The notes under the pieces were generated by a model, which saw only the letters and a list, made by a program, of their open reading frames with translations, did not search any database and was not told the origin of the DNA. Of a DNA stretch of 64,000 nucleotides, positions 37,380 to 46,859 are shown piece after piece; position 1 is the stretch's first letter; the number at the start of each line of letters is the position of its first letter. Source of the stretch: Pimelobacter simplex (GTDB lineage Bacteria; Actinomycetota; Actinomycetes; Propionibacteriales; Nocardioidaceae); contig JADCLI010000009.1 of the NCBI GenBank assembly GCA_016803235.1, forward strand, positions 82,295 through 146,294, written 5' to 3'. The translations under genes were made by a program, and so were the position numbers.

Positions 37380-38240
37380 ATGGAGGGCGTGAGGTTCACG
37401 TCCGTCTCCGGCGAGCAGCGGTACGACGCGCTGGTGCGCGTCGCGTCGCGCACCGTCGTCGGCCTGGACTTCGACGGCACCCTGTCGCCGATCGTCGACG
37501 ACCCGACGCAGGCGCACATCCACCCGGACGCCCCCGAGGTGCTGATGGCACTGGCCGAGGAGGTGGCCGCGATCGCGGTGATCACCGGCCGGCCGGCCCG
37601 CCAGGCTCTCGACCTCGGGGGGCTCGAGGAGGTCGGCGACGCGCTCGAGGCGGCCGGCAAGGAGCTCTTCGTCTTCGGGCAGTACGGCAACGAGCGGTGG
37701 AGCTCGACCCACCGCAGGATCATGGGCGCCAGGCCTCCGCGGGGGCTGGCGACCTTCGAGCGCGACCTGCCCCGGGCGCTGCGCAGCGCCGGCGCGAGCG
37801 ACGCGTTCGTCGAGGACAAGGGGCTCGCGGTCGCGGTCCACACCCGCCGGCTGCCCGACCCCGAGGGGGCCTTCGACCGGCTGCTGCCCCCGCTGCGCGA
37901 GCTCGCGGACCGGCACGGCCTGGTCCTGGAGCCCGGGAAGTCCGTGATCGAGGTCCGCTCGGCCGGTTCGCACAAGGGCATGGTCGTGCACCGCCTCGCC
38001 GGCGTGCTCGACGCCGCCGGCTTCCTCTTCGCCGGTGACGACCTCGGCGACGTCGAGGCGTTCGAGGCCGTCGAGGAGCTCGGCCAGCGCGGCCTGGCGA
38101 CCCTGCGGGTCTGCTCGGCCTCCGACGAGCAGAGCGCCCTGGTCGCGCTCTCCGATGTCGTCGTGCACGGTCCCGCCGGCGTCCTGGACCTGCTCCGGCG
38201 GTTGGCCGCCGACGCGCGCGCCGCGCGGCGTACGCCCTGA
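37380..38240 (+). CDS. otsB: trehalose-6-phosphate phosphatase
   Basis: This 286-residue HAD-superfamily phosphatase has motif 1 VVGLDFDGTLSPIVDDP (about 27-43, nucleophile Asp and general acid Asp), motif 2 AVITGRPARQAL, motif 3 Lys in SAGSHKGMVVHRL and motif 4 FAGDDLGDVEAFEAV (about 217-231). It removes phosphate from trehalose-6-phosphate made by OtsA (31859). The two genes are separated by a two-component system, an oxidoreductase and the DUF3263/LytR_C pair. The start ATG 37380 has no clear ribosome-binding site. Confidence 0.93.
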   Translation: MEGVRFTSVSGEQRYDALVRVASRTVVGLDFDGTLSPIVDDPTQAHIHPDAPEVLMALAEEVAAIAVITGRPARQALDLGGLEEVGDALEAAGKELFVFGQYGNERWSSTHRRIMGARPPRGLATFERDLPRALRSAGASDAFVEDKGLAVAVHTRRLPDPEGAFDRLLPPLRELADRHGLVLEPGKSVIEVRSAGSHKGMVVHRLAGVLDAAGFLFAGDDLGDVEAFEAVEELGQRGLATLRVCSASDEQSALVALSDVVVHGPAGVLDLLRRLAADARAARRTP

Positions 38241-38321
38241 GATCCCACATCTCGGACGCTGATCTCGACATTCGGGACCCCGATTGGTTGTCGGCGAGGG
38301 ATCGCCCCTAGGCTGAGCGTG

Positions 38322-38461
38322 CTCATCCAGAGGGACTGAGGGAACGGCCCTGAGAAGTCCCGGCAACCGCCGCGAACTCCCGTCGGACACCTGCTCGCAG
38401 GACCGGCGTCGCGGAAACGGTGCCAAATCCGACCCGCGCGAGAGTCGCCGGGACAGATGAG
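38322..38461 (+). promoter_or_regulatory. SAM-I (S-box) riboswitch
   Basis: P1 is CTCATC (38322-38327) pairing with GATGAG (38456-38461). The conserved core is present: AGAGGGACTGAGGGAACGGC, then CCGGCAACC, and GGTGCCAAATCC (38419-38430). A -10 hexamer TAGGCT at 38309-38314 places transcription start at the first base of P1. The Shine-Dalgarno AAGGAGGA (38462-38469) abuts the 3' strand of P1 and no terminator is seen, so SAM binding probably acts on translation. Confidence 0.93.
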
Positions 38462-38473
38462 AAGGAGGAATCC

Positions 38474-39760
38474 ATGAGCGCCGTTGTGACCGAGTCGCCC
38501 GAGACGACCGAGACCGCCAAGCCCGGCCTGCGCGAGGGCGCGTTCGGCAACGCCACCGCCCTCTCCTGTCGCGAGTGCGGCCACCGGGTCGACCTGGGCC
38601 CGTTCTACGCCTGTCCGGATTGCTTCGGCCCGCTGGAGATCTCCTACGACTTCCCGAAGGTCACCCGCGAGGAGATCGAGGCCGGCCCGCGCAACATCTG
38701 GCGCTACAAGGCGCTGCTGCCGGTCCCGTCGGACATCGAGACCAGCCCCAACACCGAGCCCGGCTTCACCCGGCTGCTCAAGGCCGACAACCTCGGCCGC
38801 GAGCTCGGCATCGCCAACCTGTGGGTGAAGGACGACACGACCAACCCCACCAACTCCTTCAAGGACCGCGTCGTCGCCTGCGCGCTCAGCGCCGCCCGCG
38901 AGCTGGGCGCCAAGGTCTTCGCCTGCCCCTCGACCGGCAACCTCGCCAACGCGGTCGCCGCGGCCGGCGCCCGGGCCGGGATCAAGACCGTCGTGTTCAT
39001 CCCGAGCAACCTCGAGCACCCCAAGCAGGTGAACTCGGCCATCTTCACCGACGGCCTGGTCGCCGTCGACGGCAACTACGACGACGTCAACAAGCTCGCC
39101 TCCGAGATCGCCGGCGAGGAGGAGGGCTGGGCGTTCGTCAACGTCAACGTGCGGCCCTACTACGCCGAGGGCTCCAAGACCATCGGCTACGAGATCGCCG
39201 AGCAGCTCGGCTGGCGGCTGCCCGACCAGGTCGTCATCCCGGTCGCGTCCGGCTCCCAGCTGACCAAGGTCGACAAGGCCTTCCAGGAGCTGATCAAGCT
39301 CGGCCTGGTCGAGGACAAGCCCTACCGGATCTTCGGCGCCCAGGCCACCGGCTGCGGTCCGGTCGCCACCGCCTTCAAGGCCGGCACCGACGCCATCCGT
39401 CCGGTCAAGCCCGACACCATCGCCAAGAGCCTGGCCATCGGCAACCCGGCCGACGGCATCTACGTCCTCGACATCGCCCGCCGCACCGGCGGTGCCGTCG
39501 AGGAGGTCACCGACGACGAGATCCGCGCCGGCATCGTGCTCCTCGCGCGCACCGAGGGGATCTTCGCCGAGACCGCCGGCGGTACGACGACCGCGGTCAC
39601 CAAGAAGCTCGTCGAGACCGGCCAGCTCGACCCGAACCTCGAGACCGTCGTCGTCAACACCGGCCACGGCCTCAAGACCCTCGACGCGATCGCCGACCAG
39701 GTCGGCGCCGCGGCGACCATCGCCCCGACCTACAGCGCCTTCAAGGCGACCGGTCTCTGA
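38474..39760 (+). CDS. thrC: threonine synthase homologue, possibly an O-phosphohomoserine-dependent homocysteine synthase
   Basis: This 428-residue PLP enzyme has an N-terminal zinc-ribbon-like segment (C32, C35, C47, C50 in LSCRECGHRV and YACPDCFG), PLP Lys K130 in NPTNSFKDRVV, a CPSTGNLANAVAAA phosphate loop and PVASGSQLTKV. Family knowledge says threonine synthase converts O-phosphohomoserine to threonine. Context says otherwise: it is headed by a SAM-I riboswitch, normally linked to methionine genes, and followed 26 bases later by a sulfur-carrier protein. I infer it may replace the phosphate of O-phosphohomoserine by carrier-bound sulfur to make homocysteine. Plain threonine synthase remains possible. 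Confidence 0.85.
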   Translation: MSAVVTESPETTETAKPGLREGAFGNATALSCRECGHRVDLGPFYACPDCFGPLEISYDFPKVTREEIEAGPRNIWRYKALLPVPSDIETSPNTEPGFTRLLKADNLGRELGIANLWVKDDTTNPTNSFKDRVVACALSAARELGAKVFACPSTGNLANAVAAAGARAGIKTVVFIPSNLEHPKQVNSAIFTDGLVAVDGNYDDVNKLASEIAGEEEGWAFVNVNVRPYYAEGSKTIGYEIAEQLGWRLPDQVVIPVASGSQLTKVDKAFQELIKLGLVEDKPYRIFGAQATGCGPVATAFKAGTDAIRPVKPDTIAKSLAIGNPADGIYVLDIARRTGGAVEEVTDDEIRAGIVLLARTEGIFAETAGGTTTAVTKKLVETGQLDPNLETVVVNTGHGLKTLDAIADQVGAAATIAPTYSAFKATGL

Positions 39761-39786
39761 TCCTCCCGAAAGCAAAGGAACCCCCC

Positions 39787-40065
39787 ATGGCAGTCAGCGT
39801 CCGGATCCCCACCATCCTCCGCACCTACACCGGCGGTGAGTCCGAGGTCAGCGCCACCGGCGCCAACCTCGCGGAGATCCTCGACGACCTCGACGCCAAC
39901 TACGCGGGCATCAAGGGCCGGATCCTCGACGAGGACGGCAAGCTGCGCCGCTTCGTCAACGTCTACGTCAACAACGACGACGTGCGCTTCGAGCAGGAGC
40001 TCGCCACCCCGACGCCCGACGGCGCCGAGGTCTCGGTGATCCCCGCGGTCGCCGGCGGCTGCTGA
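39787..40065 (+). CDS. MoaD/ThiS-family sulfur-carrier protein ending GGC
   Basis: This 92-residue ubiquitin-like protein (SVRIPTILRTYTGGESEVSA at the start; VSVIPAVAGGC at the end) resembles CysO/MoaD/ThiS. Carriers become C-terminal thiocarboxylates after adenylation at Gly-Gly; here one Cys follows. Extra residues after Gly-Gly are known in QbsE and HcyS, where a metalloprotease removes them first. The tail is therefore probably processed. It is co-transcribed with the thrC homologue under a SAM riboswitch, so it likely donates sulfur for methionine synthesis. No activating enzyme or protease gene lies in the window. Confidence 0.87.
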   Translation: MAVSVRIPTILRTYTGGESEVSATGANLAEILDDLDANYAGIKGRILDEDGKLRRFVNVYVNNDDVRFEQELATPTPDGAEVSVIPAVAGGC

Positions 40066-40077
40066 GCCAGCGCCCCT

Positions 40078-41103
40078 TCACAGCTCCCGACGCCGGGTCC
40101 GCAGGTACGCGGACTCGGCGTCGTTGCTGCACAGGGCCAGCGCGGCGTCGTACGCGCGCCGGGCCTCCTCGGTCCGGCCCAGCCGGGCCAGCAGCTCCGC
40201 CCGCACGGCCGGCAGCCGGTGGCCCGGCAGCGCGACCGCCCCGAGCGCGGCCAGCCCGGCGGCCGGGCCGTCGCGCTCGGCGAGCGCGACCGCCCGGTTG
40301 AGGCGCACGACCGGCGACTCGCGCAGGGCCAGCAGCTCGTCGTACCGCTCGACGATGCGACCCCAGTGCGTCGCGGCCGGGGTAGGTGCGATCGCGTGCT
40401 CGGCGGCGATCAGCGCCTGGAGCAGGTACGGCGCCGGCGGCTCGCCGACCAGGGGGCGGAGTAGCTCCAGCGCCCCGAGCGCCTCGCCGTGGTGCCACCG
40501 GCCGCGGTCCTGGTCGGCGAGCAGCACCAGGGCGCCGTCGACGACCCGGGCGTCGCGGCGAGCGTGCAGCAGGACCATCAGGGCCAGCAGGGCGTCGAGC
40601 TCGGCGCGGTCGACCTCCGGCGGCAGGACCGATCGCAGCACCCGCACCAGCCGGATCGCCTCGCCCGCAGGACCCGGCCGCAGCACGTCGGCACCCGTCC
40701 CGGGCGCGTAGCCGGTGGTGAAGGCGAGGTAGGCGATCTCGCCGACCGTCCCGATCCGGGACGCCAGCTCGGGCCCGTCGGGCAGGGTGAACGCGGCATC
40801 GGCCAGCTTCTTGCGGGCCCGGGTGAGCCGGGCCGCCATGGTGGCGGTCGGCACCAGGAACAGGCGCGCGATCTCCTCGGTCGGGACGCCGAGGACCAGC
40901 CGCAGCGTGAGCGCGGCGGCCGCCTCGCGGTGGGTTGCCGGGCACGCCCTCGTCCGGCCAGTGCCGGGCCGCGGCCTCGAACGCGTCGGCCAGGCCGTCC
41001 TCGGCCAGGTCCAGGCGCCGGTAGCGCGCGACGAGCAGGGCCAGCAGCCGGCCCCACTCGTCGCACTGCAGCCGGGCCAGGGCTTCGTGCGCGGTCTGCT
41101 CGC
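40078..41103 (-). pseudogene. ECF42-type RNA polymerase sigma factor with internal deletion
   Basis: The N-terminal sigma region 2 is readable from about 41103 (SEQTAHEALARLQCDEWGRL ... HWPDEGVPGNP). It then jumps out of frame to HREAAAALTLRLVLGVPTEE (sigma region 4) and on to the SnoaL-free TPR-like tail of about 200 residues ending RRREL at 40078. About 55 residues that normally link regions 2 and 4 are missing at 40928-40935, with a frame change. The start is unclear (CTG context). Sigma factors of this class usually work with a YCII-domain protein, whose remnant is upstream. The gene is not expected to be functional. Confidence 0.72.
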
Positions 41104-44270: not shown

Positions 44271-45128
44271 ATGGCCTGCGTCCTCCTCGTCACCTTCGAC
44301 CTCATGCCCGACGGTGAGCCGGGCGGCTCCGTGCTGCCCGAGGCGTTCGCGGCGCACGGGATCGAGGCCCGGTGGGTGCGCTGGGACGACCCGTCGGTCG
44401 ACTGGGCGGCGGCCGACCTGGTCGCGGTCCGCTCGACCTGGGACTACCACCGCCGGCTGCCCGCCTTCCTCGCCTGGGCGCGGGAGGTCGAGCGGGTGAC
44501 CGCCCTGCTCAACGGTGCCGAGGTCTTCGCGTGGAACGCGGACAAGGCCTACCTGACCGAGCTCGCGGACGTCGTACCCACGGTCCCGACGATGCTGCTC
44601 GACGACACCGACTGCGCGGGCGGGCTGGCCGCGGCGTTGGAGCGGTGGGGGAGCGTGGTCGTGAAGCCCCGCACCGGTGCGGGCGGGGTCGGCGTCGTGG
44701 TCGTCGAGAGCATCGACGACGCGCGACTGGAGGGCCTGGTCGCCGGGCCGTGGATCGCGCAGCCGCTGGTGTCGTCGGTGCGCACGACGGGGGAGTCGTC
44801 GGTGTACGTCTTCGGCGGGGTCGCGGCCGCGCAGGTCGACAAGGTCGCGGCGGCGGGGGAGGTCCGCGTGCACGAGCTGTACGGCGGATCGAGTCGGCCG
44901 GTGGCGCTGGACCCCGAGCGGGCGGCGGTCGCGGAGGGGGCGGTGCGAGCGGCCGCGACGCGGTGGGGTGCGGACCTGGCCTACGCCCGGGTCGACCTGA
45001 TGGTCTGGGAGGGCGCCTGGGTGGTCAGCGAGCTGGAGCTGATCGAGCCCGGCCTCTACCTCGACGTCGACCCGGCCAACGCGGACCGCTTCGCGACCCT
45101 GCTCGCGGGCCGGCTGGCCCGCTCCTGA
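44271..45128 (+). CDS. ATP-grasp domain protein
   Basis: This 285-residue protein has ATP-grasp features: WGSVVVKPRTGAGGVGVVVV (about 125-144, with the ATP-binding Lys), a hinge at about 160, and the metal-binding ELELIEPGLYLDVDPANADR (about 254-273, with Glu and Asn). The N-terminal part is like glutathione-synthase or RimK-type ligases. It may join a carboxylate to an amine or amino acid; the substrate is unknown. It has its own leaderless promoter (TAACGT at 44259-44264) although it is close to the SGNH gene. Confidence 0.8.
   Translation: MACVLLVTFDLMPDGEPGGSVLPEAFAAHGIEARWVRWDDPSVDWAAADLVAVRSTWDYHRRLPAFLAWAREVERVTALLNGAEVFAWNADKAYLTELADVVPTVPTMLLDDTDCAGGLAAALERWGSVVVKPRTGAGGVGVVVVESIDDARLEGLVAGPWIAQPLVSSVRTTGESSVYVFGGVAAAQVDKVAAAGEVRVHELYGGSSRPVALDPERAAVAEGAVRAAATRWGADLAYARVDLMVWEGAWVVSELELIEPGLYLDVDPANADRFATLLAGRLARS

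Positions 45129-45173: not shown

Positions 45174-46859
<1,686 letters not shown>

Follow-up and report, generated by a model that had tools for sequence, protein, structure and literature searches.

The locus analyzed here raises the question of why a gene for a threonine-synthase homologue, with a sulfur-carrier gene behind it, is preceded by a SAM riboswitch. It lies in a 64,000-nucleotide stretch of DNA from Pimelobacter simplex (denoted the window). Judging from the sequence comparisons described below, we consider it highly probable that the locus is a metM-metO operon that would make homocysteine from O-phosphohomoserine with sulfur borne by MetO, and that would be repressed by SAM. The central idea is not new; according to PMC12172450, it was published in 2024 for MetM of Streptomyces albulus. 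The gene order had been recognized in a sequence-only reading of the window as a SAM-I aptamer followed by a thrC homologue and a carrier ending in Gly-Gly-Cys, and profile searches confirmed all three elements (70.8 bits to RF00162, gathering score 44.4 bits; 259.6 bits to TIGR00260, cut-off 167.1; 60 bits to PF02597, cut-off 22.5).

The full-length SAM-I (S-box) riboswitch aptamer occupies positions 38320-38463 on the plus strand (E 1.5e-14, positions 1-108 of 108 of the model). No other RF00162 match was found in the 5.36 Mb genome, and the aptamer stands ahead of metM. From a total of 130 MetM loci, 60 were scanned with Rfam (59 distinct MetM sequences, those of L061 and L140 being identical), and all 60 carried SAM-I immediately 5' of the metM homologue. 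The score and this recurrent position in relatives rule out a chance match. A TAGGCT hexamer (38309-38314, plus strand), which ends a few bases 5' of the aptamer, is a possible -10 element; the assignment is weak because a strict sigma-70 scan reported no promoter.

The metM start codon is found 10 bases 3' of the aptamer end, and the Shine-Dalgarno sequence AAGGAGG (38462-38468, plus strand) abuts the 3' strand of helix P1, which runs straight into it. The layout is comparable in relatives, where a purine-rich stretch usually occupies this place. Among the leaders of the window and 59 other loci (L066 was excluded because a contig end truncates it), the P1 3' strand reads GATGAG in 59 of 60 and GATGAA in L057; a crude search that ignored the reading frame placed the first ATG or GTG 6-18 nt 3' of the aptamer in 55 leaders and found none in five. 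Terminator control of metM-metO was set aside, given the short distance from aptamer to start codon and a scan of positions 38230-40150 that detected no terminator-like site. Because no such site was found in the operon, the riboswitch is likely to act at the level of translation: at high SAM, helix P1 would close against the Shine-Dalgarno sequence and less metM and metO would be translated. In the predicted ligand-free fold of the leader, P1 is not formed and its 5' strand (38319-38326) pairs with the start-codon region (38474-38481), which repeats the ATGAG of the P1 3' strand. This modelled pairing is possibly an alternative helix, possibly a coincidence.

The first gene, metM (38474-39760, plus strand), encodes a ThrC-like PLP enzyme of 428 residues, an assignment based on PF00291, TIGR00260, invariant alignment columns, a tree, and a structural model with a fold search. 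The protein scores 291.4 bits against PRK08197, slightly below the cut-off of 303, and its closest named relatives are from Nocardioides sp. Root682 (90% identity) and N. immobilis (88%), identities that would make a Nocardioides the probable source of the window. It carries an N-terminal four-Cys motif (C32/C35/C47/C50) and the PLP motif NPTNSFKDRV, which contains Lys130, by analogy the Schiff-base lysine. The AlphaFold model, computed with 30 alignment rows, has a mean pLDDT of 82.4; threonine synthases ranked first when it was used in a fold search.

A tree of ThrC paralogues with and without the riboswitch had been proposed in the sequence-only reading. In our maximum-likelihood tree, the 38 MetM rows and 29 ThrC rows are split by a single branch with support of 100/100 when L166_ThrC, a row that is 17% filled, is excluded, and of 93/86 when it is included. 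The motifs follow the same division. The four-Cys motif is present in 130/130 MetM rows and in none of 30 ThrC rows (L166_ThrC included here and in the following counts), and STGNLA, found in 130/130 MetM rows, has the counterpart STGNTSA in 29/30 ThrC rows. The ThrC loop NSxNPxRxxGQKT (29/30 rows) is replaced by VNVN[VL]RP[YF]YxEGSKT in 128/130 MetM rows, a count biased, like that of the PLP motif, by the use of the patterns NPT[HN]SFKD and W[AG]FVNVN[VL] to find 80 of the 130. Of the 50 rows found without patterns, all 50 contain NPT[NH]SFKDRV and the four-Cys motif, and 49 contain the VNVN[VL]RP loop. In Thermus ThrC, Asn154, Ser155 and Arg160 of the loop NSxNPxRxxGQKT bind the substrate phosphate; a Tyr of MetM is aligned with this Arg. 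The motifs, tree and model of MetM do not prove its reaction. One metM locus labelled as a Spirochaetaceae MAG (L151) groups with G008 of the window's class at 100/100, and perhaps represents a misbinned contig.

The second gene, metO (39787-40065, plus strand), encodes a CysO-like sulfur carrier of the ThiS/MoaD family with 92 residues, identified by PF02597 and by its 57% identity to the CysO of the same genome. The nearest solved chain is 3dwg_C, listed as antigen cfp10A and presumably CysO. Using phmmer with the window's MetO, a carrier was found to adjoin metM in 108 of 130 loci, including all four from named Streptomyces. The remaining 22 have no carrier adjacent to metM, a count that concerns adjacency only and includes L149, for which sequence downstream of metM is absent, and L130 and L156, for which it extends over only 799 and 942 bases. 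Carrier-less loci were seen in Pseudonocardiaceae and probable kin (L129, L134, L138, L143 and L147), and also at L137, L139 and L141; all those that were scanned (L129, L134, L137, L138, L143 and L147) have SAM-I upstream. At the Lentzea locus L134, the list of open reading frames suggests a convergent neighbour after metM. In Pseudonocardiaceae-type loci the carrier must be supplied from elsewhere or be unnecessary. The 22 loci thus indicate that the carrier may be replaceable or that some MetM enzymes may use sulfide.

MetO of the window ends in PAVAGGC. Among 105 distinct carrier loci (the 108 minus three duplicate MetM rows), 82 carriers end exactly in Gly-Gly, 17 in Gly-Gly-Cys (one with an additional Ala) and six in other tails, the residues beyond Gly-Gly in these 23 being C, CA, S, SR, A, AR or YR. 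Within the window's own family (24 loci), 11 carriers end in Gly-Gly-Cys and 11 in Gly-Gly. Since 82 of the 105 stop at Gly-Gly, the terminal Cys is no required part of the system; it is also labile, since as a label on a quick tree of the 105 rows it requires 14 changes, and at least 8 when judged by the starred branches. An origin by stop loss was rejected, an in-frame stop being the next codon in only 1 of 84 Gly-Gly carriers. Duplication of a CTG triplet, converting GGC-TGA to GGC-TGC-TGA, would fit the codons of many carriers.

The earlier proposal that a JAMM-type protease first removes the terminal Cys does not hold as a general step, given the 82 Gly-Gly ends and the varied tails of the other 23 carriers. 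In this genome, the terminal Cys of MetO probably needs trimming, with Mec as a candidate enzyme. A Mec match was obtained in all 25 genomes of the window's family whatever the carrier tail (the copy in G237 has an internal stop), so that the presence of Mec does not discriminate between tails. CysO itself forms a CysO-cysteine adduct. It is rather improbable that the encoded Cys makes MetO a mimic of this adduct, that Mec matures both carriers and that the state of the cysteine pathway thereby gates homocysteine synthesis; were this so, the repeated gain of the Cys across lineages would be selected.

The rest of the genome contains the genes expected to supply such a pathway. A second canonical thrC with hom and thrB, as well as MoeB/ThiF-like and Mec+-like genes, had been suggested as things to look for, and all of them are present. 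The second ThrC (L003, contig C25) is 34% identical to MetM and is encoded within hom-thrC-thrB, where NCBIfam scores are 280 bits for ThrC, 206 for ThrB and 557 for homoserine dehydrogenase; no Rfam match was found at this locus. The canonical ThrC role is filled by this paralogue and not by MetM, which excludes MetM as the only thrC of the genome. Four ThiS-family carriers are encoded: MetO, CysO, ThiS and a MoaD-like protein that scores below its NCBIfam cut-off. The place of CysO in a dedicated mec-cysO-cysM locus (L007) is held by the paralogue of MetO and not by MetO itself, and the Mec homologue carries a Prok-JAB domain. The genome's CysO (L007, 1492-1770, minus strand) ends in Gly-Gly-Ala-Leu and should likewise need trimming before thiocarboxylation. 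A single ThiF-family protein exceeds the Pfam cut-off; it has a rhodanese domain and passes the NCBIfam MoeZ cut-off (652.7 against 647). The genome also encodes metY-metX, with MetX at 460.5 bits against 331 for NF001209, so that MetM is not the sole likely source of homocysteine here. SAM-I control of metY-metX was set aside, as no Rfam match above the gathering score was found at those loci. Elsewhere in the window, a gene at 44271-45128 (plus strand) matches the NCBIfam D-cycloserine synthetase DcsG with 147 bits, far below the cut-off of 360, and is situated just 5' of what by eye appears to be groEL (45231-46859).

Assembled into a pathway, these genes suggest the following scheme. Hom and ThrB would supply O-phosphohomoserine to MetM, which would exchange its phosphate for sulfur and so yield homocysteine. 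MetO would bear the sulfur in thiocarboxylate form at its Gly-Gly end. The single MoeZ would load it there through adenylation and rhodanese activities, and the extra Cys would probably have to be trimmed, most simply by the JAB protease Mec of mec-cysO-cysM. For the window, we infer the activity of MetM, the loading of MetO by MoeZ and the trimming by Mec. The formation of homocysteine from O-phosphohomoserine and carrier sulfur, as the sequence-only reading had it, gains support from the likeness to published MetM, from hom-thrC-thrB, from MoeZ and Mec, and from the complementary distribution of MetX.

This distribution was determined by searching the same 296 genomes of the window's class for MetM, SAM-I, MetX, Mec, canonical ThrC and MetA, with E limits of 1e-60 for MetM and MetX (TIGR01392), 1e-15 for Mec and 1e-80 for canonical ThrC. 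MetM was found in 195 genomes, SAM-I in 202 (in 200 of them above the gathering score), Mec in 232, canonical ThrC in 286 and MetA in 6; MetX was found in 178, with no match reaching the TIGR01392 cut-off of 500 bits. In counts which, like the Fisher tests made on them, ignore shared ancestry, SAM-I accompanies MetM in 191/195 genomes and occurs in 11/101 genomes without MetM, MetX is present in 87/195 and 91/101 (absent in 108/195 and 10/101), and MetX and MetA are both absent in 107/195 and 8/101, respectively. Near contrasts help here. The window's genus is sampled by 15 genomes, including that of the window; 14 of them have MetM and SAM-I, and MetX is missing from 7 of these 14. G092, the only one without MetM, has MetX and no SAM-I. 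A second family of this order provides the pair of G211, with MetM and SAM-I and no MetX, and G263, which shows the reverse. Two matches near the MetM threshold, in G007 (2e-75) and G023 (2.5e-62), come from genomes without SAM-I and may be incomplete or fall outside the group. SAM-I without MetM was observed in G002, G025, G031, G065, G076, G084, G248, G256, G266, G273 and G281.

PMC12172450 describes an upstream SAM riboswitch of S. albulus metM, the formation of homocysteine from O-phosphohomoserine by MetM (citing Hasebe et al. 2024, doi 10.1128/aem.01247-24) and the prevention of methionine auxotrophy by MetM; it also describes a sulfur-carrier-family gene adjoining the Microcystis thrC that resembles S. 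albulus metO. Compared with this published description, the window's locus looks like an orthologue: it shares the ThrC-like enzyme, the upstream SAM riboswitch and the sulfur-carrier gene. It differs from the system as described there in that the genome keeps metY-metX and MetO has an extra terminal Cys. Proteins from four named Streptomyces other than S. albulus are 65-68% identical to the window's MetM. In S. albulus itself, metO is said to adjoin metM, and thiocarboxylated MetO is reportedly the sulfur donor.

The arrangement also resembles other known systems. Canonical ThrC (TIGR00260) shares with MetM the fold, the NPTxSFKD motif and probably the substrate O-phosphohomoserine, but in the class the four-Cys motif is absent from the ThrC rows, whose active-site loops also differ, and the genome's own copy sits in hom-thrC-thrB. 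In the CysO-CysM-Mec system of Mycobacterium tuberculosis the acceptor is O-phosphoserine, whereas O-phosphohomoserine would be the acceptor here. In the Wolinella system, a C-terminal residue of the carrier is trimmed first, and the PLP enzyme is MetY-like and acts with O-acetylhomoserine, unlike the ThrC-like MetM. Thiocarboxylate-dependent synthesis of cysteine and methionine in M. tuberculosis and Wolinella is cited in PMC6225789. The former combines, as MetM-MetO does, a thiocarboxylate carrier with a PLP enzyme, which is CysM-like there; in the latter, as would be the case here, carrier thiocarboxylate feeds methionine synthesis.

Could MetM instead make homocysteine from O-phosphohomoserine and free sulfide, with MetO accessory or serving another sulfur path? 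The loci without an adjacent carrier, such as that of Lentzea, would agree with this, as would the use of Na2S to mimic MetM activity in PMC12172450. We nevertheless regard it as unlikely, given that a carrier adjoins metM at 108 of 130 loci, that three of the 22 exceptions (L149, L130 and L156) have little or no downstream sequence, and that a shared CysO, 57% identical to MetO here, could serve where no carrier gene is adjacent. Somewhat less probable still is that MetM is a second threonine synthase or deaminase, ordinary or moonlighting, that stands under a SAM riboswitch by chance, the carrier serving another path. The NCBIfam name of MetM and the fold search point that way, and PMC12172450 describes a homologue from a cyanobacterium that shares 51.6% identity with S. 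albulus MetM; it made and deaminated threonine in vitro and, according to its authors, was not fully functional as MetM. A canonical ThrC is, however, already present in 192/195 MetM genomes, the three without it (G083, G130 and G160) being 70, 86 and 68% complete, and MetM has replaced the ThrC loop NSxNPxRxxGQKT. SAM-I control and the loss of MetX fit a role in methionine rather than threonine synthesis.

That MetO is a second CysO feeding CysM, co-transcribed with metM only for a SAM-dependent sulfur balance, appears very improbable. The identity between the two carriers and the terminal Cys of MetO, reminiscent of the CysO-cysteine adduct, speak for it; the existence of the dedicated mec-cysO-cysM locus and the regular succession of metM and a carrier gene speak against it.

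Taken together, our preferred reading of the locus is that of a SAM-repressed metM-metO operon for homocysteine synthesis, and the case adds to the published system the coexistence with metY-metX, a labile carrier tail and loci without an adjacent carrier. NCBIfam calls both MetM and its canonical paralogue threonine synthase, so that the probable role of MetM in methionine synthesis is easily missed. In the class, 191 of the 202 genomes with SAM-I also have MetM. The MetM route would explain the absence of both MetX and MetA in 107 of 195 MetM genomes, and strains with both MetM and metY-metX allow a test of why the cell keeps two routes.
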